Assembly: GCA_011364965.1 (NCBI GenBank)
Contig: RDOB01000007.1
Coordinates: 62,001 to 126,000, forward strand
DNA: 64,000 nt
Direction of reading: 5' to 3'
Source: Candidatus Heimdallarchaeota archaeon
Lineage (GTDB): Archaea; Asgardarchaeota; Heimdallarchaeia; Hodarchaeales; Hodarchaeaceae
Shown: positions 1 through 44,634 of the stretch, piece by piece
Position numbering within the stretch: the first letter of the stretch is position 1
How the letters are laid out: the number at the start of each line of letters is the position of its first letter
Made by a program: the position numbers and the translations under genes
Notes under the pieces: model-generated
What the model saw: only the letters and a program-made list of their open reading frames with translations
Databases searched by the model: none
Told to the model about the DNA's origin: nothing

Positions 1-90
1 CAAAAGGAGCTAAAATATCCAGAAAAATCCTTCCAAGAACCCCGACATGCAAACCATGGAGTCCTGGCTCGTAGAAAATTCCTTTTCTAA
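1..90 (+). CDS. Possible C-terminal end of a gene cut by the left window edge
   Basis: Frame 1 is open from the first base to a TAA at 88-90, giving 29 residues rich in Lys, Arg and His that end in ARRKFLF. A pyrimidine-rich, T-rich stretch follows, as often seen after archaeal genes. The piece is too short to identify and could be chance, since a 29-codon open frame is not rare at this base composition. Confidence 0.25.
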   Translation, partial: QKELKYPEKSFQEPRHANHGVLARRKFLF

Positions 91-585
91 TCAAGAGTCA
101 GGATTCCCTCCCTCCCCCCTCCTTGTGCATTTTTAACCTTTCTTTTCTACATTAAAAACAATTTCGATTTTTTTTACTGTTTCAGTCCCCTAATATAACC
201 CTATCTCCCTATTCGGCCCGTTCAGTGCCTTTTTCTCTTTAATTCCGCCTTTTTTCGAGAGTTTATAATATTACATTCCTCTAATTTTCCAGAAGTAAAA
301 AAAAGGTTTTTTTTCCCCTTTTGGGCTTGACGCCGCATAACCACAATCCACCAACCTGTACCGCCATTATATGAGTCATTAGTATCGTAGAACCGACGTG
401 ATGATAACTAGAATGCTGATTTCTACCTTTTAACTAAAATGATTCAGAGGATTATGCAACATTGCGTGATATGTATTTATCATAGTAAAAAAAGTTAAGG
501 AGTACTGACCCTGTCTTGTTAGAACAATAACAGTGAAAATTAGATCAAATAGTCTCTAAACCAATTATTGTCAATCAGCTTCCCA
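91..585. other. Gene-free stretch, AT-rich with pyrimidine tracts
   Basis: About 500 bases with no convincing gene on either strand. It holds C/T-rich tracts near 108-175 and T-runs near 165-175 and 305-320 that could end transcription of whatever lies to the left. Short minus-strand frames around 330-420 are interrupted and lack a ribosome binding site. No tRNA-like fold was seen. Confidence 0.5.
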
Positions 586-10909: not shown

Positions 10910-11380
10910 ATGCCGGAAAAACCTATGCTTACAGAAGATGAGTGGTTAGATAGACTAGCTATTGAGGCTCAAGAACTGGCTCGTGAACAGCCAACTTTTC
11001 GCCCTGTAAATAACGATTTAACTCATTGGAGAGGGGAGATTTTAGGATCAGGCCTTTATGAAGGTGGAGTCTTTTTTATTGAGATCCACATCCCAAGGAA
11101 GTACCCATTTGAACCCCCAAAAGTGCGTTTCAAAACACCAATTTGGCATGTAAATATTTTCAAAGAAAAAGTTTGCGTGGGTATTTTAGGAAAGGATTGG
11201 AGCCCTGCTTACAGTTTAATCCAAGTAGTGGAAACAATAAGGTTTCTATTGAATAGTCCGAATCCTGATGATCCTCTTAATGCTGCTGCTTCGCGTCAAT
11301 GGAAGCGAAATCGTGAGGCATTTATTGATCAAGTTTCAGACTATATCACTAAATATGCCCACTGGAATCAGAGTTATTAA
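10910..11380 (+). CDS. Ubiquitin-conjugating enzyme E2 (UBC fold, catalytic Cys89)
   Basis: Receives the ubiquitin-like protein from E1 on a cysteine and passes it to a target with or without a RING E3. The whole UBC core is present: YPFEPPKVRFKT (residues 65-76), an HVN in place of HPN (80-82), catalytic C89 in EKVCVGILGKDW, and the C-terminal DDPLNAAASRQW (120-131) that matches eukaryotic E2s almost exactly. At 156 residues it is a minimal class I E2. It is transcribed alone, about 6 kb from the Ubl and E1 genes. Close resemblance to eukaryotic E2s is an Asgard trait, and it differs clearly from the bacterial-type E2 pair at 41-42 kb. Confidence 0.95.
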   Translation: MPEKPMLTEDEWLDRLAIEAQELAREQPTFRPVNNDLTHWRGEILGSGLYEGGVFFIEIHIPRKYPFEPPKVRFKTPIWHVNIFKEKVCVGILGKDWSPAYSLIQVVETIRFLLNSPNPDDPLNAAASRQWKRNREAFIDQVSDYITKYAHWNQSY

Positions 11381-11402
11381 ATGCTGTAAGATTAGCTGTA
11401 AG

Positions 11403-12431
11403 TTATACACCACGATGAATCTCACGCTTAACTGCATATTTTGGTGGGTGTTCTAAACGAGCAAAAACATGTTCAGCACGAGTATCTTCTTGTAATCGTT
11501 TCAACCACGATAAGTCCTCTTCTGATTCTAATCCCCAGACAAACAGTGCTTTTTTATATCCAGTTTGCTCATATAAAACTGAGCTACGAATAGCACGAAT
11601 AAGTTGTTCCCATCCAGAAGTATCTGGTTCTGGATACATGGGGGAATATGGCATTATATGATAGATTACATAACCACTAATTTCGATAATCTTATCTAAG
11701 GAAATGCCAAAATGACGGGTAAAACCTGCATTCCATTCAGTTTCTGGATCAACTGGAACTATCATTCCAACATTGAGTCCAGGTTGTTCGGTTTTAGCAG
11801 TTTCCACAGCTTCACGAAAAGCAGTTGTAATCAATTCCGCACGCCATTCTTCAAACATTTGCATTACATGTGGTGCTTTTTGGATGTCAATATATGTCGT
11901 ATCTAGGCTGACTCCTGAAATTTCAGAAAACTTTCGAATACTCCGTCGTGAAAAAGAATATTCTTGACGAGGGTAAAGAAATTCTTGAAAGTTCAGGGTT
12001 TCTATGGGATGTCGTGAAATTTCCCTCGCGATGTGATTCATATGTTTCCAATAACCTTCCATGGAAGGATCAACATAATCATGCACTTTTGTTCCATCAG
12101 AACGTACGATAGAATAATTACCATCTTGGCCTAAAAACGAATCTCCAAAAGCGTACGCAATTGCATGAGTTCTAATTCCCAGATCGTTTGCTAGTTCAGT
12201 AAAATCCGTAAAAAATTTTTCATAAATTGGATCGCTAGGAGCTGCCCCACTTCGATAGGTAACATACCCATCTTCCTTCTTACAGACTATAGCGACTTCT
12301 TCAAGAACTCCACCATATTCTGCTAGGAATGAGTTGGCTCCAGCAGCAGCAGGAGACTCACGAGCTGTTGGATCGATCACAGGAATAAATTTTTGATTAA
12401 TTAACCCATCAATATTCACTTTCAATAACAT
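11403..12431 (-). CDS. Hypothetical protein, probable TIM-barrel (glycosidase-like) fold
   Basis: A 342-residue soluble protein without signal peptide. Alternating strands and helices, with segments such as GIRTHAIAYAFGDSF, GLNVGMIVPVDPETEW and KKALFVWGLESEEDL, resemble the barrel of putative glycoside hydrolases, but I cannot name catalytic acids or a family with confidence. It is convergent with the E2 gene (22-base gap). An Ala/Gly-rich segment PAAAGANSF lies near residue 28. No carbohydrate genes surround it, so its link to the ubiquitin genes may be only positional. Confidence 0.5.
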   Translation of the reverse strand: MLLKVNIDGLINQKFIPVIDPTARESPAAAGANSFLAEYGGVLEEVAIVCKKEDGYVTYRSGAAPSDPIYEKFFTDFTELANDLGIRTHAIAYAFGDSFLGQDGNYSIVRSDGTKVHDYVDPSMEGYWKHMNHIAREISRHPIETLNFQEFLYPRQEYSFSRRSIRKFSEISGVSLDTTYIDIQKAPHVMQMFEEWRAELITTAFREAVETAKTEQPGLNVGMIVPVDPETEWNAGFTRHFGISLDKIIEISGYVIYHIMPYSPMYPEPDTSGWEQLIRAIRSSVLYEQTGYKKALFVWGLESEEDLSWLKRLQEDTRAEHVFARLEHPPKYAVKREIHRGV

Positions 12432-12847
12432 CCATTGCGAATCCTAATTTTTTAAATCTAATGAGGAAATAAATGCATTTCCGTATCATAAATATTGTTT
12501 GGTCTCGTAAGATAATCTCATTTGTTGAATTAAAGGCAAAATATTCTCGCAGGGATTATCCATAATTATGCTTCTTATTTGTTATTATATTTTATTTATC
12601 TTTTTTATTAGTAAACTAAACTCTACTAATTAGAATTTTTAAACCTAAGTTCTATTATTTAATAAGCAAAAAAATAATTAAATCATTTCTAGTTTCGATA
12701 GAAGTCAATTTTAGTTTGCTAAAATAAAAACCTAAACACAGACTTTTATTTCTCCTCCCTCAACGAAAAGGATTAAAAAATACTCATTCTAAGACAGAGC
12801 GATTAGCATTATATAATACATTTAATTAAGAATAAAGGTGATAACTT
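12432..12847. other. Divergent AT-rich intergenic region
   Basis: A 416-base gap between a minus-strand and a plus-strand gene. It is strongly AT-rich with many TATA-like runs; ATTATATAATAC near 12810-12821 lies about 30 bases before the metallo-hydrolase start and is its likely promoter. No open frame with a ribosome binding site and no RNA fold were found. Confidence 0.45.
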
Positions 12848-13795
12848 ATGAGTAGGATCATAGAATGGAGCCAAGGGGTTTATCGATTTATAGATGACGT
12901 TGGTAAGGGAGGTGAGGAGTATGCCAGCTATTTGGTCCTAGGTGATGATCAAATTGCCCTAATTGACATTCCAACGCGCTCTCTAGGGAAAGATATAATT
13001 TCTTACGTCAAAAAAATAGGACGAGATCCCTCCGCGATTAAATATTTGGTTTTAACACATTCTCATCCTGATCACTGGGCAGGAATCGATTCCTTGGCGA
13101 AAATAAAACCCGAAATCTGGATACATGAGGCGGGGATTAAAGCTTTGACCGAGGGGCAAAAATATATTCTGCAAACCCAGTTCCATCAAGCCTCACGGTT
13201 CAGTTTAGCAATGAAATCCTCTCTATTCTCCAAAATCAGTAAAATTGACGAAAAATTCATCCATCCTTTTTCTAGCAGTGAAACACTTGAGCTTGGAGGG
13301 GAATCACTTATTCTTCAACATACTGGAGGGCATTCTGCTGATTCCATTTTAATTCAAGCATATCGGGGACAATGCACATTTATTGGAGATGAAGGTAATA
13401 TTTATCCTGATCAGCCTGCAGCTTTCTATTTAGACGCAACAGGAGATTCTAAAAAGCGCTTAAAACTTCTAGAACTTCTTAAAAATGTCCGTACAGAAGT
13501 GATTTGTCCTTCTCATCAAAGTCCTGTTCCGAAACCTACCGACATGTATATTCATAACCTAATTTTCGAACATAATCACACAAAAGATACATTATATGAT
13601 CTTTTACTAAGTGTTGGGCAATCAAAAGTACATTATCTCTCTGAGGAGTATCAAAACACCTTGGGAATATCTTGGAAAACGCCTTTCGATGAATTGGGTG
13701 TTGCTGAAACCACTGTTACCGTTTTCATGAATGAGCTGAAAAAAGAAGGAAAAGTGGATTATGAATCGCATAATGAACGCTGGAAAGTAGTGTGA
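12848..13795 (+). CDS. Metallo-beta-lactamase-fold hydrolase with C-terminal winged helix
   Basis: A two-metal hydrolase of the LACTB2/glyoxalase-II-like group. Ligands are visible: HSHPDHW (about residue 72), HTGGHSAD (about 158), the Asp in FIGDEGN (about 180) and PSHQSP (about 223). After residue 240 a winged-helix segment follows (DTLYDLLLSVGQSKVHYLSE, then TVTVFMNELKKEGKVDY), as in LACTB2-type proteins that bind RNA. The start has AAAGGTG upstream. The substrate could be RNA or a thioester. It is convergent with the small RING operon and has no operon partner. Confidence 0.8.
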   Translation: MSRIIEWSQGVYRFIDDVGKGGEEYASYLVLGDDQIALIDIPTRSLGKDIISYVKKIGRDPSAIKYLVLTHSHPDHWAGIDSLAKIKPEIWIHEAGIKALTEGQKYILQTQFHQASRFSLAMKSSLFSKISKIDEKFIHPFSSSETLELGGESLILQHTGGHSADSILIQAYRGQCTFIGDEGNIYPDQPAAFYLDATGDSKKRLKLLELLKNVRTEVICPSHQSPVPKPTDMYIHNLIFEHNHTKDTLYDLLLSVGQSKVHYLSEEYQNTLGISWKTPFDELGVAETTVTVFMNELKKEGKVDYESHNERWKVV

Positions 13796-13807
13796 GAATA
13801 GTACCAC

Positions 13808-14254
13808 TTATTCAGTGAACCAAGCAGATTCTGATACTATATCGATATCAATAGAGATCCATTTTTCTTCAGGATGACCTTTTTTTGTCTCTAATAATAA
13901 TCTGAGATAAATAAAAGTTTCAGGCGAATAAAGGTAAATCTCCCATGAATGCCCAGAAATAATTTTAAACTCTTTATAACCTGTATTACTGATATCTCCA
14001 GATGTAATTGTGAAATGGATTACTTCTCCCTGAATTTCCTCCAATTTAGCTTCAATTACATTGAGAAGTTCAGGAATTAGGTACTCTAGAGGAGTTTCAA
14101 AAGATGGGTGAATATTCCAAGAGATTATTGTATTGTTATTTCTTTGCTTTTTTTTTACCTGATGGGTTCGACTTCTATCGTAATGAAACGAGGCTATTTT
14201 TGATTCGATTATAGTTACCAACTGCTTGATGACGTCTTGTTCATAAGTATCCAT
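13808..14254 (-). CDS. Hypothetical protein, last gene of the RING cluster
   Basis: A 148-residue protein with no recognised family. It starts with a helical segment (MDTYEQDVIKQLVTIIESK), has a basic patch (QVKKKQRNN) and then a mixed alpha/beta region with Trp/Tyr-rich strands (HSWEIYLYSPETFIYLRLL). It begins 11 bases after the RING protein gene ends, on the same strand, so it is likely part of a three-gene unit: coiled coil, RING, this protein. It may be a RING partner or substrate adaptor, which is inference only. Confidence 0.55.
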   Translation of the reverse strand: MDTYEQDVIKQLVTIIESKIASFHYDRSRTHQVKKKQRNNNTIISWNIHPSFETPLEYLIPELLNVIEAKLEEIQGEVIHFTITSGDISNTGYKEFKIISGHSWEIYLYSPETFIYLRLLLETKKGHPEEKWISIDIDIVSESAWFTE

Positions 14255-14265
14255 CTTGGAACCTG

Positions 14266-14586
14266 CTATAAGGGCTGTTTACAATAAGGACAGTACTTCT
14301 TTGTCGCGAGCCATCTAAGCATATGCTCTTGGTGAGCTTTTTGATGGCAATTTGGGCATTCCATAATTTTATCTACATCTTTATAAGAATCTATTGGTTT
14401 CCAACATATCATACAACGAATTTTTTCAAATGGATCCCATTCACCAATTGTTTTTCCTTTTAAAATGAATCTTGTTTGATTTGACTTATTTTTCGTCAAA
14501 CTAGCCCAAAACGACCTATCAGGAGTTGAATTTTTACTCATCAATTGTGAAGGACGTAAAATATATTTATTATTCTTATAAGACAT
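14266..14586 (-). CDS. Small RING-type zinc-finger protein (candidate E3 ligase)
   Basis: The C-terminal 50 residues carry a RING-like cross-brace: CMIC, then MECPNCHQKAHQEHM, then RWLATKKYCPYC. The CPxC end and the H-x2-H centre match RING-H2 fingers and the small RING proteins reported from Asgard archaea. It would bind the E2 and promote transfer of the Ubl. I chose the start MSYKNNKY (14586) because AAGGATGG lies 8-9 bases upstream; an upstream start at 14628 would overlap the previous gene by 38 bases. The N-terminal 50 residues are basic and probably disordered. The preceding gene encodes a coiled coil whose stop is 4 bases from this start. Confidence 0.82.
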   Translation of the reverse strand: MSYKNNKYILRPSQLMSKNSTPDRSFWASLTKNKSNQTRFILKGKTIGEWDPFEKIRCMICWKPIDSYKDVDKIMECPNCHQKAHQEHMLRWLATKKYCPYCKQPL

Positions 14587-14590
14587 TGTT

Positions 14591-14971
14591 TTATCCATCC
14601 TTATCGATCTGATCATGCAATTTCTCAAGTATTATAGCGAGTTCTTCTTTTAATGCAACTAAATCTGCTTTTTCGATCATTAGATAAGATGAAGCTTCTG
14701 ATTGTAACTCTTGCACTTCCTTCTCCTTTTTGGCCATATAATTGACAAGATTGGCTATTGAGTTGCCAATCGAAGACAGGATATCACTTTGTTTGTTAAT
14801 TATTTTATGCAATTCTACTATCTGTTCATTTATTCTTGAGAAGTCTTTTTCAAAATCAGTTGAATCTGGTTTTACTAAATTTATAGCTGTTTCGAGACCT
14901 TTGATCGTAGGTACTTCCCCTTTAGGAGTCTTAAGGGTTTCGATTTCAACTTCTCGGGACTCTTTTACCAT
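14591..14971 (-). CDS. Coiled-coil protein, first gene of the RING cluster
   Basis: A 126-residue acidic, almost wholly helical protein with heptad-like spacing across residues 35-120 (SRINEQIVELHKIINKQSDIL, then EKEVQELQSEASSYL). No catalytic motif or membrane segment. It is the leading gene of a minus-strand unit with the RING protein (4-base spacing) and a third unknown protein. A dimerising scaffold for the RING E3 is a reasonable guess. It begins within GAGTCTTTTACCATTTG on the plus strand, where no clear ribosome binding site is seen, so it may be leaderless. Confidence 0.55.
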   Translation of the reverse strand: MVKESREVEIETLKTPKGEVPTIKGLETAINLVKPDSTDFEKDFSRINEQIVELHKIINKQSDILSSIGNSIANLVNYMAKKEKEVQELQSEASSYLMIEKADLVALKEELAIILEKLHDQIDKDG

Positions 14972-15196
14972 TTGCTTTCAATTTAATACAAAGCTAGTTG
15001 GATTACAAAAAGATAATCTTATTGAGTAAGGGAAAATAAGCTAAGTAAGTTTTTTTCAAAATGCCTTCGAATGGAATTTCTTTTAAACACTGATACCTTT
15101 AATGGTAAATTGAAGCTCAGATATCACTTAATACAGTGTTAAATCCTTTTTTTCGTAAATAATTTTTAAAAAAATCTTATAAGGGTAGATGTATGA

Positions 15197-15766
15197 ATGC
15201 AAAAAAAGACAGATGAAATCTATTCTGTTATTTTACTCGGAACTAGCGGAGTAGGTAAATCTACTATTGCATTCTACCTCGAACATGGCTATCCCCCTCC
15301 AAGGAGCATCCGTCCTACAATTGCTTTTGGAATAACGCATATAGTTATAAATGGAGCGGTTTTAAGCTTAATTGATGTCGGAGGCCAGAGAAAATTTCTA
15401 GATATGCGTTTTCATGAACGATTTGTGAGAAGTGCTGACGGTTTGGTATTTGTAATGGATAGTTCACGGAAGGACTTCAAAGTGGACGAGGAATGGCTTC
15501 ATCATGCTTTAAGTTTAATGTCTCCCGACATTCCAATGATCGTAATTGCTAATAAACAGGATTTACCTTCTGCTTTATCTCCAGATTTCTTGGAGGAACA
15601 CTTACTGCGTGATACCTTGAAAAATCATTTTTATAAGGTTTTTGGAACTGTTGCTGCTGATCCCGGAGGCGTTCGCAGTGGGGAAAACGTAGAGTTAGCT
15701 TTTCATTACCTTGCCACAGAGATGAATTCTAAAAGAAAAATAATCTACCAAAAAGAACAGATTTGA
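15197..15766 (+). CDS. Arf-family small GTPase
   Basis: A 189-residue GTPase. G1 is LGTSGVGKST (residues 14-23), the switch-II motif is DVGGQRKF rather than DxAGQ, which marks the Arf/Sar group, and G4 is ANKQDLP (about residue 117). There is no Gly2 for myristoylation and no amphipathic N-terminal helix, so membrane attachment of the eukaryotic kind is not expected. The gene ends 15 bases before a KaiC-like ATPase and the pair is probably one operon upstream of the Ubl and E1 genes. Arf-like GTPases of Asgards are candidates for membrane-identity switches. Confidence 0.9.
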   Translation: MQKKTDEIYSVILLGTSGVGKSTIAFYLEHGYPPPRSIRPTIAFGITHIVINGAVLSLIDVGGQRKFLDMRFHERFVRSADGLVFVMDSSRKDFKVDEEWLHHALSLMSPDIPMIVIANKQDLPSALSPDFLEEHLLRDTLKNHFYKVFGTVAADPGGVRSGENVELAFHYLATEMNSKRKIIYQKEQI

Positions 15767-15781
15767 TGAGAGGATAGATTT

Positions 15782-16570
15782 ATGTTCGAAAAAGTGCGTG
15801 TAACTACGGGGATTCCTTATCTAGATGCTTTGACCCAAGGAGGATTTATTAAAGGCAGTACTAACCTCGTAATTGGACCTGCTGGAGCTGGGAAAACTAT
15901 CTGTGGACTCCATTTCCTCTTGGAGGGTGCTAAAAAGAATGAAAACGGCTTACTTGTTGCTATGCAAGAACCCCCTTGGGCTATCAGACGAGATGCAAGT
16001 AATTTTACTTTTTTCGATCATAATTACTTTGTTGAACCAGAAAAGGTAGTTATGTTAGATTTCACACCCTCTGGCTGGGAATTATGGGATCCTGACAGCT
16101 TATCATATGCTGAAGGATCAGAAATGATATTAGAGGCTGAAGGAGTACCTTATGACGAAACTTCTCTTCCAACTTTTCTACATAAAGTCTTTTATCACAT
16201 CTCTGAAGTAATTGAAGAAAAGAAAATAGAAAGGGTTGTAATAGATCCCCTGGCTGCATTCCGGTTTTATGATTATGGGAATGATTATGGATTCCTCAGA
16301 AAACTCACTACAGGTTTCCTTACAAATATAGCTTCATTAAATGTTACTACTGTTGCTATTTCTGAATTAGCAAGTAGTTCAGAGCAATCTCTCTTTGGAG
16401 AGGAGTATATTGCAGATTCTATTTTTCATTTAGATATGCTTTCAGTAAGAGGGGAGCTAGTGCGTATCCTTCGTATAAGTAAGATGCGTGGGACAAACCA
16501 TTCCACTAAAACATTGAGGTATAAAATCACAAATAATGGGATAACTTTTATTGAACCAGAAGATGAATAA
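15782..16570 (+). CDS. KaiC-like RecA-superfamily ATPase
   Basis: A 262-residue single-domain KaiC/GvpD-type ATPase. The Walker A GPAGAGKT lies at about residues 34-41 after a TTGIPYLDALTQGG lead-in, the Walker B-like VVIDPLAAF near residue 153, and the C-terminal motif RISKMRGTNHSTKTLRYKIT is the typical KaiC-type hairpin. Such archaeal proteins often act in signalling, binding GTPases, kinases or flagellar parts. The tight spacing to the Arf-like GTPase (15 bases) suggests a functional pair. An insertion at residues 85-125, rich in acidic residues (WDPDSLSYAEGSEM), is unusual and may be an interaction loop. Confidence 0.85.
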   Translation: MFEKVRVTTGIPYLDALTQGGFIKGSTNLVIGPAGAGKTICGLHFLLEGAKKNENGLLVAMQEPPWAIRRDASNFTFFDHNYFVEPEKVVMLDFTPSGWELWDPDSLSYAEGSEMILEAEGVPYDETSLPTFLHKVFYHISEVIEEKKIERVVIDPLAAFRFYDYGNDYGFLRKLTTGFLTNIASLNVTTVAISELASSSEQSLFGEEYIADSIFHLDMLSVRGELVRILRISKMRGTNHSTKTLRYKITNNGITFIEPEDE

Positions 16571-16668
16571 AGATACCCAATAACTAGGGATTTCATTCCT
16601 CATTCAAAGCATTTTAAAAGTAGATATTAGATTTCAATTATCAAATTACTAGACCGAAGGAATGAAAA

Positions 16669-16902
16669 ATGCAAATTACCATTGTTCAAGCCATTGGCGG
16701 CGGAGAAATAACTCTGGATTGTGAAAAAACAAACTCAATTGCTGCGATTAAAGATCAAGTTGCCCGAGAGAAAAAAATTCCTGCTCGCTCCGTCATTTTA
16801 GTATTCCAAGGAAAACAATTAGATGAAAGTGAAACATTGAAATCTGCTGGAATAGAAGATATGGACAAACTTTACATGATCACACGGACAACAGGAGGAT
16901 AG
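16669..16902 (+). CDS. Ubiquitin-like protein ending in Gly-Gly
   Basis: A 77-residue beta-grasp protein aligning with ubiquitin along its whole length: MQITIV against MQIFVK, IKDQVAREKKIP at the helix, LVFQGKQLDES against LIFAGKQLEDG, and a C-terminus RTTGG. It ends exactly with GG, so no peptidase is needed to mature it. K49 matches ubiquitin Lys48 and K28 matches Lys27, whereas the Lys63 position is Asp64 and the Lys11 position is not Lys. R73 matches Arg72, used by E1s. AAGGA lies 8 bases before the start. The E1 gene follows 33 bases downstream, so the two are likely co-transcribed. Confidence 0.95.
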   Translation: MQITIVQAIGGGEITLDCEKTNSIAAIKDQVAREKKIPARSVILVFQGKQLDESETLKSAGIEDMDKLYMITRTTGG

Positions 16903-16935
16903 ATTTTAAAATAGTTTTTTCTCGTCCTACTCCAT

Positions 16936-17931
16936 ATGAGCGGGAGATACCATAGACAACAATTAATTGATAAATGGGATCAAGAAAAGGTTACTGAAAG
17001 TACAGTAGCAATTATTGGGATGGGAGCTTTAGGTACGGTCGCTGCTGCCTCACTAGCCATGGGTGGTGTGGGTCATTTAATTTTGGTTGATTTAGATACA
17101 GTTGAAATAAGTAATTTAAATCGGCAGTTATTCTATCGAAGTACGGATGTAAATAAACCTAAAGTTGAAGTAAGTGCAAAAATTCTAGAGCAGATTAATC
17201 CTGATATTAAAATTACTCCGCTCAACATGCCAATTGAGGAAGTTTCAACAGAAATTTTATCAAAATGCAACGTAATTGCTGCAGGTCTGGACACATTTCA
17301 AACTAGAAGATGGGTTAATTCCTTCGTTGTGTCTCACAACATTCCCTTAGTTTCTGGAGGAATGTATGGCTTCTATGGAAATATTCAGGTTATTATGCCA
17401 AAAGAAACAGCTTGCATAGAATGTCAAACACTCATTCCTGAACATGAATTACAAAAGGCTTGCACACCATTCGGGGAGGTTCGAAAAGCAATTAGAGGGG
17501 AAGAGGAAGTAGATGCATATCAACCTGCTGTATCTAGCGTTTCGTTTGTTATTGGGGGTTTAATGGCTCAAGAAGTATTTAAAATAGTTTTAGGACTAAA
17601 ACCTCTTTCTGAATACTTATTCTGGGATGGAGATGCTGGAGTTTTTACTTCCTTGGCATTACAAAGGCGTGAAAATTGTATTATATGTTCAGATCATTAT
17701 CAACTTCGCGAAACAATAATTCACTCCCCCTCAGACCAAACCCTCCTAGATTTTGCCAATCAATTGCGCTACTCCTTTAATCTTGGTCCAAATATGCGAA
17801 TTCTCTATAAAGCTAAAGAAATCGCTCTTACAAGTGATTACATGAATACAATTTTCCAATCTGGAGCAATTTTTCGTGTAGTTGACCCTTTACTCTCTTT
17901 CCCGGCCAAATTCAAAGTAATTTTGGATTAA
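16936..17931 (+). CDS. Ubiquitin-activating E1-like enzyme
   Basis: Adenylates the Ubl C-terminus and holds it as a thioester. The nucleotide site is GMGALG (residues 28-33), with VDLDTVEISNLNRQ (51-64), the Arg and Asn that contact ATP, and the Lys in NKPK. C160/C163 and a second CIIC near residue 252 form a zinc site as in E1s and MoeB. C176 in KACTPFGE is the likely thioester cysteine, matching the ACT motif of eukaryotic E1s. The last 60 residues (DQTLLDFANQLRYSFNL onward) look like a ubiquitin-fold domain for E2 recruitment. At 331 residues it is a homodimer-type or single-domain E1, close to Uba3/Uba2 but shorter. Confidence 0.92.
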   Translation: MSGRYHRQQLIDKWDQEKVTESTVAIIGMGALGTVAAASLAMGGVGHLILVDLDTVEISNLNRQLFYRSTDVNKPKVEVSAKILEQINPDIKITPLNMPIEEVSTEILSKCNVIAAGLDTFQTRRWVNSFVVSHNIPLVSGGMYGFYGNIQVIMPKETACIECQTLIPEHELQKACTPFGEVRKAIRGEEEVDAYQPAVSSVSFVIGGLMAQEVFKIVLGLKPLSEYLFWDGDAGVFTSLALQRRENCIICSDHYQLRETIIHSPSDQTLLDFANQLRYSFNLGPNMRILYKAKEIALTSDYMNTIFQSGAIFRVVDPLLSFPAKFKVILD

Positions 17932-17955
17932 AATACCCTTACTTTAATCTTTTTA

Positions 17956-18702
17956 TTAGATTAAAGCAGGTAGGAAATAGAATACAATGAAAAAAAATGC
18001 CACAACTGCTCCAATACCATAGGAGTAATATCGATTAAGGAGATGTAAAGATTGTATTCCATTTCCACAATGATAAGCAGAAAGGCCTATAAAGTATAAA
18101 TATATTAAATCAAAAAAAACGTAACTTCGCCAAGTATCTGTACTAATTGTTGATATCCCCGGACCAATAATTCCGATTAATAAACTCACAACCAAGGATC
18201 CCATTATTAGTGGTCCTAAAGAATACCCGACTAGTCTATTGGTAAAACGAAACCCTGCTTTTCCTCCAAGTAATTTTGCTATTAACCAAATTGCAATGCT
18301 GACTGCATACCATCCAAAAAGCGCAAGAGGAAAAAAAGCAATCCAAATTATTAATGGAGCTAATAAAAAATACCAGAAATGAAAATCATGCCATGAAGGG
18401 TTTGCAGCTTTAAGGGCTAATGCTCCTAGCCTCATTGAATAAGTAATTGAGATTAAAATCAGAACAATAAAAATCCCCTTCCTATCAGGATTGACTGCGA
18501 TCTCATTAAAAAGACGTGGACTAAGTCTAGGATCATATAGACTCCGAAAGATGCGTAAAAAGCTTTCCCGAAGCGTAATATTTGTTCTTTCTCTAGCTCG
18601 AACGATTTTAGTCAGGTCGTACCCACAATAAGGACATAGAATATATCCACCAGGACTTCTTTCACTGCAGTTTGGACAGACGATCGATTCGGAACTTGAC
18701 AT
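17956..18702 (-). CDS. Zinc-ribbon Yip1-like membrane protein
   Basis: A 248-residue protein. An N-terminal double-CxxC zinc ribbon (CPNCSERSPGGYILCPYCGYD, broken as CPNC at 9-12 and CPYC at 22-25) is followed by an amphipathic linker ending near residue 75 and then five hydrophobic spans. The order matches Yip1-family proteins that contact Rab GTPases in eukaryotic membranes. Here it lies convergent with the E1 gene and 1.4 kb from a longin-Rab fusion, so a GTPase-membrane link is attractive but unproven. Ribosome binding site: TAAGAGG in the complement just upstream. Confidence 0.72.
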   Translation of the reverse strand: MSSSESIVCPNCSERSPGGYILCPYCGYDLTKIVRARERTNITLRESFLRIFRSLYDPRLSPRLFNEIAVNPDRKGIFIVLILISITYSMRLGALALKAANPSWHDFHFWYFLLAPLIIWIAFFPLALFGWYAVSIAIWLIAKLLGGKAGFRFTNRLVGYSLGPLIMGSLVVSLLIGIIGPGISTISTDTWRSYVFFDLIYLYFIGLSAYHCGNGIQSLHLLNRYYSYGIGAVVAFFFIVFYFLPALI

Positions 18703-18879
18703 TAATCTTACCTCTTAGGGAAGCTTACTACTATTTTTTCGTATTTACTATTCTTAACCATTTCCCAACTGAGTATTTGCCAAACCCTTTCCAGAGAAAC
18801 CTTAAAAGCACTTTTCAATTCTCAATTAATACTTACTTACTTTTGGAAAATTTAACATAATATTTGGAGTGTAAAACAC

Positions 18880-19899
18880 ATGAGTGATTTTCTTTTTGGA
18901 CCTATTGGTGAAAAATTACTGGAATTAATACAAAGCTTTTCTAATCCCGTTTTAGATTTATATTTTGGCATTATTACAACCCTAGGTGATACCCTACCGA
19001 TTCTTATCATAATTATTCTTCTTTATTACACAATTAATAAAGAATTTATAAATAAAGTGATTTATGTACTTATTTTTTCTGCTCATTTGAATACTGTCGC
19101 CAAAATTATCTTTCATAACCCAAGACCGTTTCAATATGATATAAAATACCAAAAAATAACTAACGTGTTCGGTATGGAAACTACGTGGAGTGCTGGGGGA
19201 TATTCTTTTCCCTCAGGACATTCAAACACGCAAGGCGCCTTTTGGGGATATGTTTTTTCCCGCTATAGAACACCAGTATATATAATATTAGGATTCCTCC
19301 TTCTTACCACCATCCCACTTTCTCGAACATATCTTGGAGTTCATTGGCCTAGTGATATACTTATAGGAGTGTTATTTGGATTATTAATAGCTTATTCTTT
19401 CCTATATGCCGAAAAAAGGTATGGTGAGTCTCTCCGCAACCAATCAAATGGAAAAAAGATAATATTAGGTTTTTGCGCAAGTTTTGGATTGTTAATCCTT
19501 GGATTAATTGCATTATTTTTAGGTACAATATTACCATTCAATCAACAGATCTTGATCACTGATCCTTTTGTTTGGGATGAGGCAAATATTGGAACATATC
19601 CTGGAATTCTTGCTGGGTTTATTGCTGGGCAAGTTTTAGAAAAAAAATATGTGGATTTTAAAATCAGAAGAGAAAATAAAAAAATCATTGCTATACGTTC
19701 AATAATTGGTTTAGTCACAGTTATTGTGTTATATTTGGTAGCTGGAAAAATTGAGGATCTTGCTACTGAGTTTTCAGATCAAATTGCTTGGAGTACAACG
19801 ATAGCTAATTATTTCTCATATCTATTGATTGCTTTCTTTTTAGCATTTATAATCCCGTGGATATTTACAAAAATCGAATCTCTTATTTTTTCTGATTAA
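18880..19899 (+). CDS. PAP2-family membrane phosphatase
   Basis: An integral membrane phosphatase of the phosphatidic acid phosphatase type 2 family, probably acting on lipid phosphates or undecaprenyl/dolichyl-type pyrophosphates. The three catalytic motifs are visible: KIIFHNPRP (about residues 71-79), PSGHS (about 111) and SRTYLGVHWPSD (about 148). Eight or more hydrophobic spans are seen over 339 residues, longer than minimal PAP2 enzymes because of three additional C-terminal spans. It is a single gene flanked by a poly-T terminator. Substrate cannot be read from sequence. Confidence 0.87.
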   Translation: MSDFLFGPIGEKLLELIQSFSNPVLDLYFGIITTLGDTLPILIIIILLYYTINKEFINKVIYVLIFSAHLNTVAKIIFHNPRPFQYDIKYQKITNVFGMETTWSAGGYSFPSGHSNTQGAFWGYVFSRYRTPVYIILGFLLLTTIPLSRTYLGVHWPSDILIGVLFGLLIAYSFLYAEKRYGESLRNQSNGKKIILGFCASFGLLILGLIALFLGTILPFNQQILITDPFVWDEANIGTYPGILAGFIAGQVLEKKYVDFKIRRENKKIIAIRSIIGLVTVIVLYLVAGKIEDLATEFSDQIAWSTTIANYFSYLLIAFFLAFIIPWIFTKIESLIFSD

Positions 19900-19940
19900 T
19901 TACCCTTTTCTTTTTCCTTTTTTTAATTTTTATAGTTAAG
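19898..19940 (+). terminator. Poly-T terminator after the PAP2 gene
   Basis: Directly after the stop the plus strand carries several T-runs (TTTTCTTTTTCC, TTTTTTTAATTTTT) with no hairpin, the usual archaeal termination signal. It separates the PAP2 gene from the following GTPase/ESCRT block. Confidence 0.6.
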
Positions 19941-20127
19941 ATTCGGTTTTTTGAATAATTTTAGACCTCTAATTTAATATGTCTCTAATTATCATCACTT
20001 TCGAAAAGAAATACGACTTTTTCTGAAAACTTCACCTGAATTGAATTTTTTAGTAAATGTAAACCCTTAAAGTAGAAAACTGAATATAATCACCTCGAGA
20101 ATAATGTAAAATTAATAACGTTTAAAT

Positions 20128-21378
20128 ATGAATTTAAGCGGAGTTCCTTACCCAATGGACGAAAAAAATTCCTCTAATCAACATGATGAACCCAATAAAG
20201 AACATCCTGTTGAAAAAAGGATTGATGACGACGATCGTTTTGATGAAATGGAGGAATTCGCCCTAAAGGTTCGAGTTGAGCTTGAGGATGCGTTAACAGG
20301 ACGGGATGACTATTTACATCTCCTAGAGGATGTTTATGACCTTTCTGACAAAATGCCTAAAAAATATCGGGATGAATTTCATCGTTTTCGTTTGTTGAGT
20401 GCGGAGAACACTGAAGAAATTCATATGATCTCCTGCTTTTTAAGCAGTGGAAAACCATTATTTGATTACTCTGTGTCAGAAAAAGTGGATCCTGAGAAAT
20501 CTCATGGACTAATATTGAATGCGATTAAAAACTATGTTCGTTATAAGCTAGGTGAATTGTTAGAAATTCTCACATTAGAAACATATTCAATTCACCTGTT
20601 TCTTGCAGAAAAAACATATATAATAAGCATTATTACCTCCAAAAATCTCCCTCGAGATAAAATTGCCCCGCTTGCAATCCAAATGGCTCGAACATTGAAG
20701 TATTATCCTAATGAAACACCTTATACCAATAAAGAATTAAAAGGCGATTTGGATCGTGCAATTAGCGCAACAATTAGTACACTTGTCAAAGAACAACACA
20801 CGCTAAAGATTATCTTAATTGGTGATGGAGCGGTTGGAAAAACTTCAATCAGACGTAGATATCTTGGCGAGGGGTTTAAAGATGATTACCAGATGACCAT
20901 TGGAGCAGATTTAGCAGCAAAAGCTGCACCAACCATTTATGCCGGCGGAAAACAAATCAAATATTTAATTTGGGATCTTGCGGGGCAACCTCGATTCAAT
21001 CACGTCAGAAAAGCTTACTACATGTCTGCAGTTGGCGCCTTGGTTGTTTTTGATATAACTCGACCCGAAAGTTTTCAGAACATAGTAACCTGGATGAACG
21101 AACTATGGAGACATAACGGACGAGGTCCAGTACCATTAGTTGTTTTGGGTAATAAAACGGATTTATGCGAACAAGGTCTCACCTGTGTGCCAGAGGAAAA
21201 AGCTTTTACGTTTATTAGGCGTTTATCAGATCTCTCACATAAATATAAGGGTTTCAAGATTCATTTTCTACCCACAAGCGCAAAGACTGGATTGAATATA
21301 GATAAAGCCTTTGAACTGCTTGGAGAAGCTATTATGGACTTCTTAGGGTCAAGTAAAAACTCAAGAAAACAAATCTAA
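20128..21378 (+). CDS. Longin-like domain fused to a Rab/Ras-like GTPase
   Basis: A 416-residue protein. The first 90 residues are acidic and helical. Residues about 93-185 read as a longin/roadblock-like fold (MISCFLSSGKPLFDYSV, then a helix, then IHLFLAEKTYIISIITS and an amphipathic helix). The C-terminal 190 residues are a small GTPase: G1 GDGAVGKT (232-239), G3 WDLAGQPRF (282-290), G4 GNKTDL (about 341) and G5 TSAK (about 382). The catalytic Gln is kept. No CaaX box. In eukaryotes longin domains pair with Rabs in trans; here they are one chain. It leads the ESCRT block by 89 bases. Met10 (20155) is an alternative start. Confidence 0.75.
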   Translation: MNLSGVPYPMDEKNSSNQHDEPNKEHPVEKRIDDDDRFDEMEEFALKVRVELEDALTGRDDYLHLLEDVYDLSDKMPKKYRDEFHRFRLLSAENTEEIHMISCFLSSGKPLFDYSVSEKVDPEKSHGLILNAIKNYVRYKLGELLEILTLETYSIHLFLAEKTYIISIITSKNLPRDKIAPLAIQMARTLKYYPNETPYTNKELKGDLDRAISATISTLVKEQHTLKIILIGDGAVGKTSIRRRYLGEGFKDDYQMTIGADLAAKAAPTIYAGGKQIKYLIWDLAGQPRFNHVRKAYYMSAVGALVVFDITRPESFQNIVTWMNELWRHNGRGPVPLVVLGNKTDLCEQGLTCVPEEKAFTFIRRLSDLSHKYKGFKIHFLPTSAKTGLNIDKAFELLGEAIMDFLGSSKNSRKQI

Positions 21379-21467
21379 TAATCAGATTGATACAGTCCTT
21401 CCTTATTCTGAGGCTTTATTAAGTGAAATTGGGAAGTTTTCCTCAGATAGAATAATCACGTTAATAT

Positions 21468-22256
21468 ATGTATTCACAAAAAATACTATGTGAATCCGAA
21501 CATTGGTGCAAAAAAATGGATCGAGATTTTATTTTAGCCCGAGAAGCACAACTAGTCTACTCTAATTCTGCTGCTTCTGGCTTTAACCCTGTAGGAGACT
21601 CATTAGAAAAATGGCAAGGAACATTAACTTATACAACGAATCGTGGGCGTAATATGTTCACATTTGAGATATTCTTACCTGAATATTTTCCTAATGTTCC
21701 TCCTGTTGCTACTGCTATTGGATTTATGGATCATCCCAACATAGATAATGATGGATTTGTGCAATTACGGATTCTAGATAATTGGAGAGCGGAGTTTCAT
21801 CTTTATCAGGTAATTATTGCCTTAAAAAACCTCATGTCTAGAGTTCCTCCAACTCCGAGAGGTCAAACTGCCAAAACAGCAAGAGATGTTGTCTCAAGAA
21901 TTACCCAAGCTCCTCCACAGCAGGAACCAGTACAAGCACGAAGTGAAGCAGAAAGTACGGCTCTTCGAATGGAACTTACTGCTATAAATCAGCAACTTAG
22001 AGAAAAAGAAGAAGAGATTGCCAGATTACGTGCGCGACAAGTAATTCATTCCGAACCTTCTTCTACTAGTCGTCCCCACCTTTCTGCTGTCGAAGAGCTT
22101 GAATCTGAAAAAATTGCAACCTCAGATCTACTAGCTGCACTAGAAGATCGTTATGCTAGCGGAGAAATTTCAATTTTTGAATATTCTAGATTGTATAAAA
22201 AATATTCCAAAGAATTATACGTATTGAAAAAAGAACTTGAGTATCTTGGAAGGTAA
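21468..22256 (+). CDS. ESCRT-I TSG101/Vps23-like: inactive E2 (UEV) plus coiled coil plus steadiness box
   Basis: A 262-residue ESCRT-I core subunit. Residues about 15-127 form an E2 fold with YFPNVPPVAT and HPN (89-91), but the catalytic position is Gln99 (GFVQL where active E2s have GxxCL), so it is a ubiquitin-binding UEV and not an enzyme. A Pro/Gln-rich linker (about 127-160) leads to a coiled coil (160-195, ALRMELTAINQQLREKEEE). The last 50 residues (LLAALEDRYASGEISIFEY onward) match the steadiness box of TSG101/Vps23. The Vps28-like gene begins 6 bases after the stop. It probably recognises Ubl-tagged cargo and binds Vps28. Confidence 0.87.
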   Translation: MYSQKILCESEHWCKKMDRDFILAREAQLVYSNSAASGFNPVGDSLEKWQGTLTYTTNRGRNMFTFEIFLPEYFPNVPPVATAIGFMDHPNIDNDGFVQLRILDNWRAEFHLYQVIIALKNLMSRVPPTPRGQTAKTARDVVSRITQAPPQQEPVQARSEAESTALRMELTAINQQLREKEEEIARLRARQVIHSEPSSTSRPHLSAVEELESEKIATSDLLAALEDRYASGEISIFEYSRLYKKYSKELYVLKKELEYLGR

Positions 22257-41357: not shown

Positions 41358-41765
41358 TCAAGCTTCCTCCCATGCCCAAACACCTACTTTTCGCCAACGG
41401 CAATACGCCCAAATCCAGGTTTGAATCATCAGAGCTGCATCGTAAGCAGTGAAAGAGAAATGCCAGTCTTTTTGTGGTCTTAAATAGCAAATTTCAGTAT
41501 GGCCATATTCATCGGTACCATACACATGGTGAGTCTTCGCAGCTATTCGTGGTTTTGTAATCCAGGCCCTAGGAGGAGCGGTAGGATAGTTATGGGGAAA
41601 TTCAATCAAGACATGAAAAGTACCACAGGCAAAGCTTCCAGTAGTGACATATTTCACCTTTACACAGATATTACCGTTTTCTAAACGATAAAAATCATCC
41701 CGAGTTAACCCAGGAAATACTCCTTGTAATTCATGTAGTTCCTGTTCAACTGTACGATCATACAT
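41358..41765 (-). CDS. Bacterial-type E2 (UBC-like) protein B, catalytic Cys93
   Basis: A 135-residue E2-fold protein close to its neighbour. Shared elements: FACGTFHVLIEFPHNYPTAPP (central strands), HHVYG, the catalytic EICYLRPQKDW (Cys93) and the C-terminal helix WIWAYCRWRKVGVWAWEEA. The motif CYLRP-x2-DW and the Trp-rich tail are typical of bacterial E2-like proteins encoded beside E1 and JAB genes, not of eukaryotic E2s. It is the last gene of the operon, 17 bases after E2 A. Both copies keep the Cys, so both may be active, perhaps with different targets. Confidence 0.83.
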   Translation of the reverse strand: MYDRTVEQELHELQGVFPGLTRDDFYRLENGNICVKVKYVTTGSFACGTFHVLIEFPHNYPTAPPRAWITKPRIAAKTHHVYGTDEYGHTEICYLRPQKDWHFSFTAYDAALMIQTWIWAYCRWRKVGVWAWEEA

Positions 41766-41782
41766 TTTGATTCATCCAATTT

Positions 41783-42238
41783 TTATAGAAAATGGTTCCA
41801 GAATCCTGCTTCTGGAAAACCCCAAGAACCCGTTTTTGTCCAGCGACAGTATGTTTTGAGCCAAACCTCAACCATTTTTGCAGTTTCATACGAAGTATAG
41901 GATAAATGCCAGTCTTTTTTGGGACGTAAGTAGCATATGAGGGCATGGCCTTCTTTATCCCATTCATACACATGAGGTGTTTTTTCGGGGATTTTAGGTT
42001 TTTGTACCCAAACCTTAGGAGCATTAATAGGATAATTATATGGGTATTCAATAAGAACGTCAAAATAACCACATGCATATTTACCTGTGGTAATAAAGCT
42101 AATTTGAACGCAGTAATTACCATTTGCCAATTGCTGAAAGTCCTGCTCCTTAACACTGGGAAAAAGCTTTTGCAAGGGTTTCAATTCCCGATCTGAAATT
42201 CTTTGGCGTAATGACAAGTTTGAAGCTCCATAGCTCAT
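41783..42238 (-). CDS. Bacterial-type E2 (UBC-like) protein A, catalytic Cys102
   Basis: A 151-residue E2-fold protein, a tandem paralogue of the next gene. It has YACGYFDVLIEYPYNYPINAP, HVYEWDKEGHALICYLRPKKDW with Cys102, and WLKTYCRWTKTGSWGFPEA. The start codon overlaps the E1 stop (TAATG), so translation is coupled. Relative to the E2 at 10.9 kb it lacks HPN and the DPLN tail, and the family is different. Which modifier it carries is unknown, as no Ubl gene is adjacent. Confidence 0.85.
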   Translation of the reverse strand: MSYGASNLSLRQRISDRELKPLQKLFPSVKEQDFQQLANGNYCVQISFITTGKYACGYFDVLIEYPYNYPINAPKVWVQKPKIPEKTPHVYEWDKEGHALICYLRPKKDWHLSYTSYETAKMVEVWLKTYCRWTKTGSWGFPEAGFWNHFL

Positions 42239-43497
42239 TAATCAGGATTGTTAATATCTGAAGAGAAATTAGGAACTGACGATGTGCTGTGAAAAGGACA
42301 GGTAGGATCAGTGGTCAAATCCTCATAATAATAAAGCTCAAGACCATCATACTTAATGGCAGTTTGATCTGAAGTTTTGATAGTACGATTATACCACATA
42401 TAGAAGTTGTAAGGAAAATGATACAATCCATGGGGAATTCCTGTTAAAAGTAAATCCAAACAGAATTTTGCTAATAGTAAGGTTAAGTTATCCACATCTA
42501 ATCCCAATCCTGGTTGGGCAAGCTGTTCTTGCAAAGTGCGGTCGTATGTAATTTTGTGTTCTAATTCGATAGTGGTCGGTATAGAGCTAGAACCAGTCTC
42601 AGGTTTGGCATAGACACAATGATAACAATAATCTCCTTTCCGCGGGTCAACCTTAAACATTAAACCTCCTTTTACTCCAGCAAATGTTCCTGCATATACT
42701 AGGGGAATGGCTAATTGATTGGTATGAACGAAATCATTGATCGCATAATTGACATCGTGCTCTCCAGAAACAGCAGCGATTAAATCTATTCCTTGGAGTG
42801 ACTCAAGGAAGAAATCAAAGTCTTTTTTGGTATGTAAAACGAACTTCTGTTCTATAGTTTCAATTTGAACATCAGGAATTCGAGCTAGGATATAATCTTT
42901 CACTGCTCGAGTTTTAAAGCGACCAAGTTGGGACAGATCGCAAATATGACGAATAATATTGTGAGTCTCAAGCAAATCGTCGTCGATAAAGATAAAGTTT
43001 TTCACTCCAGACTTAGCAAGATATAATGCTAAAAGCGATCCTCCAGACCCCATACCAATGATAGCTACTTTTTTCTTCTTCAACTCTCCTAAGGGTGTTT
43101 CTTTTTGATCAATTCGGACAAATAAGCGATCTAAATTCACAAATTCGAATTCAACTTCAGTATTACCTTCTGAGAGATAAAACCTGAATTTAAGATTGAT
43201 AAAATCTTTAGTACTAGTTGCATGAAGAAAAGGAAAATTAAAAATCGATTGAAGCTTAGAAACATCAAGAGGAGAGTCCTCTAAAGTTAAGACACCGATC
43301 GATTGGGGAGATTGGACAGTAGTCAAGCCAGTAACATGATAGAGAGTATAATCATCAAAATATCGGCCAGAAAGCCACAATGTTGAACTTTTAGCAATCT
43401 GTTTTCTTTTAACTTGATAATCATGTTTAAATGACGGATAAACTAGAATTTTAAGAGGTTTAGCAAAGGTCAATTCAACCCCTCCATTATTTTCCAT
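42238..43497 (-). CDS. ThiF/E1-like activating enzyme with N-terminal domain
   Basis: A 419-residue E1-like enzyme. The first 135 residues form a separate beta-rich domain of unknown function. The adenylation domain has AIIGMGSGGSLLALYLAKSG (148-153 glycine loop), FIDDDLLETHNIIRH with the ATP-contacting Asn-x2-Arg, GRFKTRAVKDYI, and a half zinc motif CYHC near residue 288. A catalytic Cys is not obvious. This form matches E1s of bacterial E1-E2-JAB gene clusters rather than the eukaryotic-like E1 at 16.9 kb. It overlaps the JAB gene by 28 bases and E2 A by one base. Confidence 0.87.
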   Translation of the reverse strand: MENNGGVELTFAKPLKILVYPSFKHDYQVKRKQIAKSSTLWLSGRYFDDYTLYHVTGLTTVQSPQSIGVLTLEDSPLDVSKLQSIFNFPFLHATSTKDFINLKFRFYLSEGNTEVEFEFVNLDRLFVRIDQKETPLGELKKKKVAIIGMGSGGSLLALYLAKSGVKNFIFIDDDLLETHNIIRHICDLSQLGRFKTRAVKDYILARIPDVQIETIEQKFVLHTKKDFDFFLESLQGIDLIAAVSGEHDVNYAINDFVHTNQLAIPLVYAGTFAGVKGGLMFKVDPRKGDYCYHCVYAKPETGSSSIPTTIELEHKITYDRTLQEQLAQPGLGLDVDNLTLLLAKFCLDLLLTGIPHGLYHFPYNFYMWYNRTIKTSDQTAIKYDGLELYYYEDLTTDPTCPFHSTSSVPNFSSDINNPD

Positions 43498-44435
43498 AAA
43501 GGTTCGGATAATAATTCCAAAACTTCACCTTCAAGAGAAGCTTTGAGTGAAAGTAAAAATGGATGGAGTAAATCCGGGTCTACCAGTAAATTTGCCGGAT
43601 GTTTTTCAACAGTAAAGTTCCGAGACATATCAGAAGATGAGATATCTATGTATAATTGACCCTCAGGAAAATTAGACGGAAAAGAAAGAAGAACCAAAAC
43701 ATTCACAGAAAGTTCACTCCCCTCAACGATAATAGTAAATTTATAGGGGAATGAGATAATTTTTTCTCCCCGAGTAGATCCAGGAAACTCCTGAATGTCG
43801 TTTAAAGTAAAAGTAGTGTCAAATACTTCAATTAAAGCTTCTTTTATGGGAAGAAGTTGTTCAGGTAAGATTCCTATCGGTTTTAGCGGGGAAATCTCCA
43901 TACCCGCGGACATAATTCTGATATTCGACACAGGAATCCGTAATGTTTCAAAATTAGCACTACTAGGTTCCGTTGCCAAAGCTTGGTCTCTTCGATATAA
44001 TTCAATGATTACTTCAGGATCTGAATCTGGAAGAAAATCCACTATTAGGGCAAGAATTAGGTTCCTATGAGGATTCAACATAAAAAAATCACTAATTTCC
44101 CCATGATCCCTATGACTGGGCCCTCCATATCCAAGATGTTTGTGCCAATTCCCTAAATATAGTGTTGTTTCTTGTTCTAGGAGCTGTTTTGCATATTCGG
44201 GATCAATTTCGAAATACATATGTTCTCGAACAGCAAGATTGTCGGGTGGTATTTCCATCCTCTCAATGCAGATATCTAATCCCCCATTAATATTTCGAAT
44301 GGTTCCAAATAGCATTCCTCCAGTTTCCCTTCCTACCCATTTGGTTGCTTCTTCAATAATCTGGTCATAGATATCTTGACTTAAATATAGAAAAATACTG
44401 TCCTCTGGTTCAGGAAACATCAAAACTACCCTCAT
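43470..44435 (-). CDS. JAB/JAMM metallopeptidase fused to an RWD/UEV-like domain
   Basis: A 321-residue predicted deconjugating peptidase. The JAMM zinc site is complete: Glu37 in RETGGMLFG, H98-x-H100, S107 and D110 in WHKHLGYGGPSHRDHGEI. After residue 180 a second domain looks like an RWD/E2-related fold (FPYKFTIIVEGSELSVNVLV, then LSFPSNFPEGQLYIDIS), which could bind the E1 or an E2. A start at 44420 (MFPEPEDS) is possible because GAGGG lies upstream of it. It is the second gene of the operon, 38 bases after the peptide gene. It may mature a modifier or remove it. Confidence 0.85.
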   Translation of the reverse strand: MRVVLMFPEPEDSIFLYLSQDIYDQIIEEATKWVGRETGGMLFGTIRNINGGLDICIERMEIPPDNLAVREHMYFEIDPEYAKQLLEQETTLYLGNWHKHLGYGGPSHRDHGEISDFFMLNPHRNLILALIVDFLPDSDPEVIIELYRRDQALATEPSSANFETLRIPVSNIRIMSAGMEISPLKPIGILPEQLLPIKEALIEVFDTTFTLNDIQEFPGSTRGEKIISFPYKFTIIVEGSELSVNVLVLLSFPSNFPEGQLYIDISSSDMSRNFTVEKHPANLLVDPDLLHPFLLSLKASLEGEVLELLSEPLWKIMEGLN

Positions 44436-44473
44436 TGGTCTAGAGTGTATATCAAGGAAAGATAAGAAAGAAT

Positions 44474-44575
44474 CTAGTAATGCTTTGAGATTGGAACTGT
44501 ATCTACATTCTTTTCAGCATCTTCAGTCGCATTTTCTTTTGTTTCAGTATCTACGCGTTTAACAGGTCGAGGCAT
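44474..44575 (-). CDS. Small 33-residue peptide leading the JAB-E1-E2-E2 operon
   Basis: A 34-codon frame with ATG at 44575 and TAG at 44474-44476. A strong ribosome binding site AGGAG (complement of 44584-44588) lies eight bases upstream. The peptide begins MPRPVKRVDTETKENA, continues acidic (TEDAEK) and ends PISKHY, with no Gly-Gly tail and no transmembrane segment. It is 38 bases before the JAB gene. Its position suggests a substrate or accessory of the conjugation genes. It is too short for a beta-grasp fold and I recognise no family. It could alternatively be a leader peptide controlling the operon. Confidence 0.6.
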   Translation of the reverse strand: MPRPVKRVDTETKENATEDAEKNVDTVPISKHY

Positions 44576-44616
44576 ACTTTTACACTCCTAAAAATTGCAG
44601 GTATACAAAAAAATTC

Positions 44617-44634
44617 TGAATTTATTAAACTTTA
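44617..44634 (-). promoter_or_regulatory. TATA-like promoter of the second conjugation operon
   Basis: On the minus strand CTAAAGTTTAATAAATTC lies about 45-55 bases before the 33-codon gene. A purine-rich BRE-like AAAG followed by TTTAATAAA is a good match for an archaeal promoter. A start about 25 bases downstream would leave a leader of about 25 bases holding the AGGAG site. Confidence 0.4.

Follow-up and report, generated by a model that had tools for sequence, protein, structure and literature searches.

What does a ubiquitin-like conjugation machinery act on when no ubiquitin-like modifier is encoded beside it? The question is raised by a five-gene cassette on the minus strand of the 64,000-nt stretch of Candidatus Heimdallarchaeota archaeon DNA analysed here (contig RDOB01000007.1; hereafter the window, in which all cassette coordinates are given). 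The cassette spans 41358-44575 and encodes, in this order, a 33-residue peptide, a JAB/JAMM metalloprotease (JAB), an E1-like adenylating enzyme (E1) and two E2-like enzymes (E2a and E2b). The genes are closely packed: 38 bp separate the peptide gene from that of the JAB, the JAB and E1 genes overlap by 28 bp and those of the E1 and E2a by 1 bp, and 17 bp lie between E2a and E2b. An earlier sequence-only reading of this DNA had described five tightly coupled minus-strand genes led by a 33-codon frame with an AGGAG ribosome binding site, all of which we find in place, and had offered three options, namely a modifier encoded elsewhere, the peptide as modifier or substrate, or action on another target. 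Our analysis favours the peptide branch, because the peptide is present in every relative that bears the enzymes and absent otherwise, and because no gene for a ubiquitin-like protein (Ubl) is linked to them; the conjugation itself we can only infer.

A search of 228 Asgard genomes with the E2a protein found the whole cassette in seven of the 12 genomes of the same genus (the Ca. Hodarchaeum group) and in no other genome of the set. The peptide lies directly before the JAB in all seven cassettes, and a separate search of the same set with the peptide returned the same seven genomes (E 1e-17 to 4.3e-14, next best match 0.07) and no copy outside these carriers; the five remaining genomes of the genus have neither peptide nor enzymes. 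The seven cassettes occupy four genomic contexts, four of them sharing a downstream MoxR-type neighbourhood and three lying elsewhere, and the flanking genes vary from context to context. Up to about 3.5 kb from the cassette, no other open reading frame (ORF) with a length of 28-150 codons is common to different contexts, so that the peptide gene is the only small gene constantly found with the enzymes. The flanking ORFs do not include a cassette-linked ubiquitin-like gene in any relative, and a linked Ubl as modifier is thus rejected. This agrees with the sequence-only reading, in which no beta-grasp modifier adjoined the cassette: the only conserved small ORF nearby is the Gly-free peptide, and neither of the two observations named beforehand as damaging, a peptide missing from relatives or a Ubl gene linked to the operon, was made. 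A search of viral contigs with the E1 and E2 proteins found none encoding them, and no plasmid relatives of the window E2b were found.

The peptide is also the slowest-evolving product of the cassette. Its identity to the window copy is 85-91% in all seven cases (pairwise amino-acid identity 85-100%), as compared with 43-49% for the JAB, 56-63% for the E1, 62-75% for E2a and 77-79% for E2b. Within codons 2-33, 25 of the 31 variable nucleotide columns fall at the third codon position (binomial p 9e-8), and hardly any copy leaves either of the other forward frames open. The mean ratio of nonsynonymous to synonymous change (pN/pS) is lower for the peptide, at 0.08, than for any of the enzymes, which range from 0.16 (E2b, the most conserved of the four) to 0.44; because synonymous change in the enzymes is close to saturation, pN is the safer comparison, at 0.04 for the peptide versus 0.13 to 0.32 for the enzymes. 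The N-terminus MPRPVKR and the C-terminus DTVPISKHY are invariant, the variable positions being 8, 12, 15, 22 and 24, and the start codon is TTG in one copy. A chance ORF can be rejected on the presence of the frame in all seven cassettes, its amino-acid identity, its third-position bias and its low pN/pS, and we regard the peptide as almost certainly a real gene functionally linked to the enzymes. The conservation check proposed in the sequence-only reading thus turned out in favour of the 33-residue frame, which every enzyme-bearing relative has in the same place and almost unchanged. An AT-rich box (TAAAGtTTAATAAAtt), 44-59 nt upstream of the peptide start, is likewise kept in all seven relatives, beyond which the upstream sequences do not align. 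The stop codon directly follows Tyr33 in six genomes, and the copy in G047 carries one extra Ser (...HYS). This copy (L023:6856-6957) offers a natural test of whether the Tyr is obligatorily terminal or is exposed by trimming.

Judged by sequence comparison, the enzymes are of the kind known from type II cyclic-oligonucleotide-based antiphage signalling systems (CBASS), with a Cap2-like E1, CBASS E2s and a Cap3-like JAB. PADLOC models for CBASS E1-E2, E2 and JAB match all four enzymes (8.6e-29, 1.5e-9 and 1.2e-8, respectively, with 1e-8 to 1e-9 for the E2 models on the two E2s), and Pfam places Prok-JAB and ThiF above cut-off and gives weak UQ_con/RWD/Prok-E2 matches on both E2s. In the JAB, the JAMM residues E37, H98, H100, S107 and D110 are invariant in the alignment of the seven relatives, and the Foldseek matches are BRCC36, Rpn11 and CSN6. 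Predicted secondary structure suggests that the C-terminal domain of the JAB may be RWD/E2-like, for which profile comparison was not significant; a JAB-like N-terminal domain in the E1, suggested in the same way, was also unsupported by profile comparison. A JAB relative in G175 proved to be an ordinary lone JAB. The best solved-structure relatives of the E1 are Cap2, ThiF, PaaA and MccB, with BubCD also among its Foldseek matches, and its adenylation core is intact. Its only invariant cysteines among the seven relatives are C291, C294 and C400, which together with H403 look like a zinc site. The crossover loop reads SSSIPTT, the ubiquitin-type E1 of the host having CxxC plus ACTP, with ACTP in this loop, and E. 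coli Cap2 having a predicted C513 in the matching loop (PMC10097602). As the seven-relative alignment holds no spare conserved cysteine there, the acyl group would be likely to move directly from the adenylate onto the cysteine of an E2. The motif ICYxRPxKDW, including its cysteine, is invariant in all 14 E2s (both enzymes, seven relatives).

Because the peptide is the constant and near-invariant partner of an E1-E2-JAB set, we propose it, by the logic of known systems, as the substrate of the E1. The Cap2/MccB-like E1 would adenylate the C-terminal carboxylate of the peptide at Tyr33 (...TVPISKHY), one E2 or both would then receive the acyl group on the active cysteine, perhaps straight from the adenylate, and the peptide would be joined to amino groups of target proteins or other molecules, from which the JAB could take it off, unless the JAB serves to trim the peptide end. 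Such a cassette would be an analogue of the Cap2-Cap3 half of type II CBASS, in which the tail is provided by a free peptide instead of the end of a nucleotidyltransferase (CD-NTase). A peptide substrate is plausible because Cap2 takes a disordered non-beta-grasp tail and because MccB and PaaA act on short peptides. Adenylation, thioester formation, conjugation, deconjugation and the targets are all steps that we infer. The chances that the peptide is a modifier conjugated by the cassette appear to us about even, and we consider it equally balanced whether the cassette as a whole is a ubiquitin-like conjugation system complete in itself, with a free 33-residue peptide outside the beta-grasp fold as the substrate that it activates.

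Several observations speak against conjugation of the peptide. It ends in Tyr (in one relative in Tyr-Ser), unlike known E1 modifiers, and it contains no Gly at all, while Cap2 needs Gly or Ala and leaves cGAS with a terminal Ser, Val, Arg or Trp unconjugated (PMC10097602). The N-terminal MPRPVKR shows the same invariance as the tail, so that binding may be how the peptide works. Finally, homology between the peptide and the two short peptides that head remote cassettes (see below) is not significant (p 0.1 to 0.9). As for Tyr33, the explanation would be a different pocket in the E1, trimming of the end, or an action of the peptide that needs no conjugation.

The window contains a ubiquitin gene (16669-16902) and a ubiquitin-type E1 gene (16936-17931) about 25 kb from the cassette, and each of the 12 genomes of the genus, with or without cassette, has ubiquitin-family genes. 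In an E1 tree, 100/100 support separates a cassette/Cap2-type group from three host ThiF-family proteins including the ubiquitin-type E1. To this group belong the E1s of the seven cassettes, the remote Asgard E1 of G077, an E1 of a Bradyrhizobium CBASS and three Cap2s from Asgard archaea; placement inside it is weak, and row L004, a 35-residue fragment, should be disregarded. For the E1, this split bears out the earlier statement that the cassette enzymes differ from the eukaryotic-like set. The eukaryote-like ubiquitin neighbourhood itself extends over 10910-22256, with an E2 at 10910, a RING-type protein at 14266, ubiquitin at 16669, the E1 at 16936 and, at 21468, a second E2-like protein whose tail resembles a coiled coil.

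The equal invariance of the two peptide ends and the Tyr unlike known modifiers would also fit a peptide that acts as a small subunit, scaffold, pseudo-substrate inhibitor or acceptor, the conjugated protein (host ubiquitin, for example, or another protein tail) being encoded elsewhere, and the ubiquitins of all 12 genomes could supply it. However, the peptide is the only gene that stays with the cassette across the four contexts, whereas the ubiquitin gene lies at a distance, beside an E1 of its own from a different group, and is present in cassette-free genomes too; we therefore rate this explanation as unlikely, although it retains appreciable weight. MccB and PaaA are two of the solved structures to which the E1 is best related, and this brings to mind a pathway like those of ribosomally synthesized and post-translationally modified peptides (cf. 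microcin C7 MccB and pantocin A PaaA), in which the ThiF-type enzyme would turn a short ribosomal peptide into a small bioactive product. The near-invariance of the peptide across species and the presence of two E2s and an intact JAB argue against it, no transporter or immunity gene was recognised when the ORFs adjoining the cassette were read through, and such a pathway seems to us improbable.

A third explanation starts from the enzymes, all of which are CBASS-like, and from remote Asgard relatives that are true CBASS loci: the cassette could be a decayed or partial type II CBASS acting on a CD-NTase or other protein elsewhere, and the short frame, which comes first after the conserved promoter-like box, could be a leader peptide controlling translation. 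Yet no CD-NTase (Pfam SMODS) is present in the operon or, within the limits set by incomplete metagenome-assembled genomes, in six of the seven cassette genomes, the match in the seventh lying on another contig. Moreover, the amino acids of the peptide are conserved while third positions vary freely, which a leader would not need, attenuator-type codon runs are lacking, and the enzymes are intact, so that this origin, too, is very doubtful. Conjugation of the peptide, with the reservations given above, is the reading that we prefer.

Beyond the genus, profile comparisons relate the Hodarchaeal proteins to an E2-E1-JAB set of the Asgard genome G077 (E1 9e-27, JAB 3e-12, E2 3e-10), in which a 47-codon ORF with GGAGG (L050:318-461), ending ...FKHQVWY, lies directly before the E2. 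On a plasmid of Mesorhizobium AR10, an annotated 57-aa hypothetical protein ending ...NLGGEY (L099:3887-4060) directly precedes a series of E2, E2-like, ThiF, JAB, metallo-beta-lactamase (MBL)-type and patatin genes, the E1 being split by a frameshift. All three short peptides end in Tyr, the two remote cases each being a single genome, and a short Tyr-ending ORF at the head of remote cassettes is suggestive only, a lead rather than a result. That a peptide-modifier cascade exists and in addition belongs to a wider, unrecognised kind of peptide tagging in archaea and bacteria, with a Tyr-ending peptide gene before a Cap2/Cap3-like set, is a tentative idea that falls somewhat short of an even chance. 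Plasmid relatives of the G077 E2, in the loci inspected, are mostly short CBASS with a CD-NTase and not peptide cassettes. Opposite the G077 cassette, gene L050:4396-5214 apparently encodes two E2/RWD-like domains and a zinc ribbon. Type II CBASS loci with CD-NTase, Cap2 and Cap3 were also seen in Asgard genomes, namely L085 (G084), L086 (G127) and L087 (G119); their CD-NTases end in FGV, YGEE and FGN, respectively, and because these ends are not Gly/Ala they may need trimming. The Cap2 crossover loops of the three loci are without cysteine as well.

Table. Features of the peptide cassette and its upstream region (window coordinates, except for the E1 domains, given in residues)
Feature	Position	Strand	Basis and remarks
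AT-rich box TAAAGtTTAATAAAtt, probable archaeal promoter (TFB recognition element (BRE)/TATA-like)	44619..44634	-	predicted function
AGGAG ribosome binding site of the peptide gene	44585..44589	-	sequence; GGAG kept in 7/7 relatives
33-residue peptide MPRPVKRVDTETKENATEDAEKNVDTVPISKHY	44474..44575	-	33-codon frame, first gene of the cassette
JAB/JAMM metalloprotease, 321 aa	43470..44435	-	Prok-JAB; JAMM residues invariant
E1-like adenylating enzyme, 419 aa	42238..43497	-	ThiF E 4.5e-25
E1, N-terminal domain	about 1-120		
E1, ThiF domain	from about 137 on		
E2-like enzyme a (E2a), 151 aa, putative active Cys102	41783..42238	-	PADLOC CBASS E2 models 7.5e-9
E2-like enzyme b (E2b), 135 aa, putative active Cys93	41358..41765	-	PADLOC CBASS E2 model 1.5e-9

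According to the usual teaching, E1-E2 cascades carry proteins of the beta-grasp fold; the one known exception, Cap2, joins a whole nucleotidyltransferase. If the proposal is true, a cascade that serves a 33-residue peptide alone would mean that the enzymes need only a tail and not a fold, and would provide a minimal, synthesizable system for studying how E1/E2 chemistry arose. The enzymes vary a kind already known, and it is the peptide as modifier that would be new: the open-access papers searched (subscription papers and preprints being outside this scope) yielded no account in which a free short peptide is the substrate of an E1-E2-JAB cassette, and according to a 2025 review Cap2 is the only known system of its type that activates a non-beta-grasp protein, with more expected (PMC12355090). 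The host lineage adds to the interest, as Hodarchaeales have been proposed to be close to eukaryotes (PMC12077186) and the cells that carry the cassette also hold eukaryote-like ubiquitin, making the cassette a second set beside an ordinary ubiquitin system.

Compared with canonical ubiquitin and Ubl systems, the cassette E1 and E2s keep the adenylation core and the E2 cysteine, but a linked beta-grasp modifier with C-terminal Gly and a cysteine in the E1 crossover loop are lacking. The Bil, Bub and polyUbl systems follow the same E1-E2-JAB logic and encode beta-grasp Ubls, whereas the cassette has none. The 6A-MBL operons (type 6a of Iyer 2006, PMC1779556; NF058523) resemble it in having E2, E1 and JAB without a linked Ubl, but there a fused E2-E1-JAB protein accompanies a gene of the MBL fold, in contrast to the separate genes, second E2, peptide and missing MBL found here, and the cassette proteins match the NF058523 model only weakly, with scores far below its cut-off. 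Pupylation (Pup-PafA-Dop) shares with the cassette a short, presumably disordered peptide as a possible protein tag. Pup, however, has about double the length and a terminal Gln/Glu instead of Tyr, and PafA and Dop are glutamine-synthetase-like, unlike the ThiF, UBC and JAB folds of the cassette enzymes. Microcin C7 MccB and pantocin PaaA likewise pair a ThiF-fold enzyme with a short ribosomal peptide gene, but have no E2 or JAB, and their product is an antibiotic. Type II CBASS, with Cap2 (E2-E1) and Cap3 (JAB), shares sequence-related E1, E2 and JAB, the absence of a beta-grasp modifier and an E1 that can be expected to act on a flexible C-terminal tail. It differs in that the cassette operon contains neither CD-NTase nor cell-killing effector, that its E1 and two E2s are on separate chains, and that it encodes a free 33-aa peptide ending in Tyr rather than in Gly/Ala.

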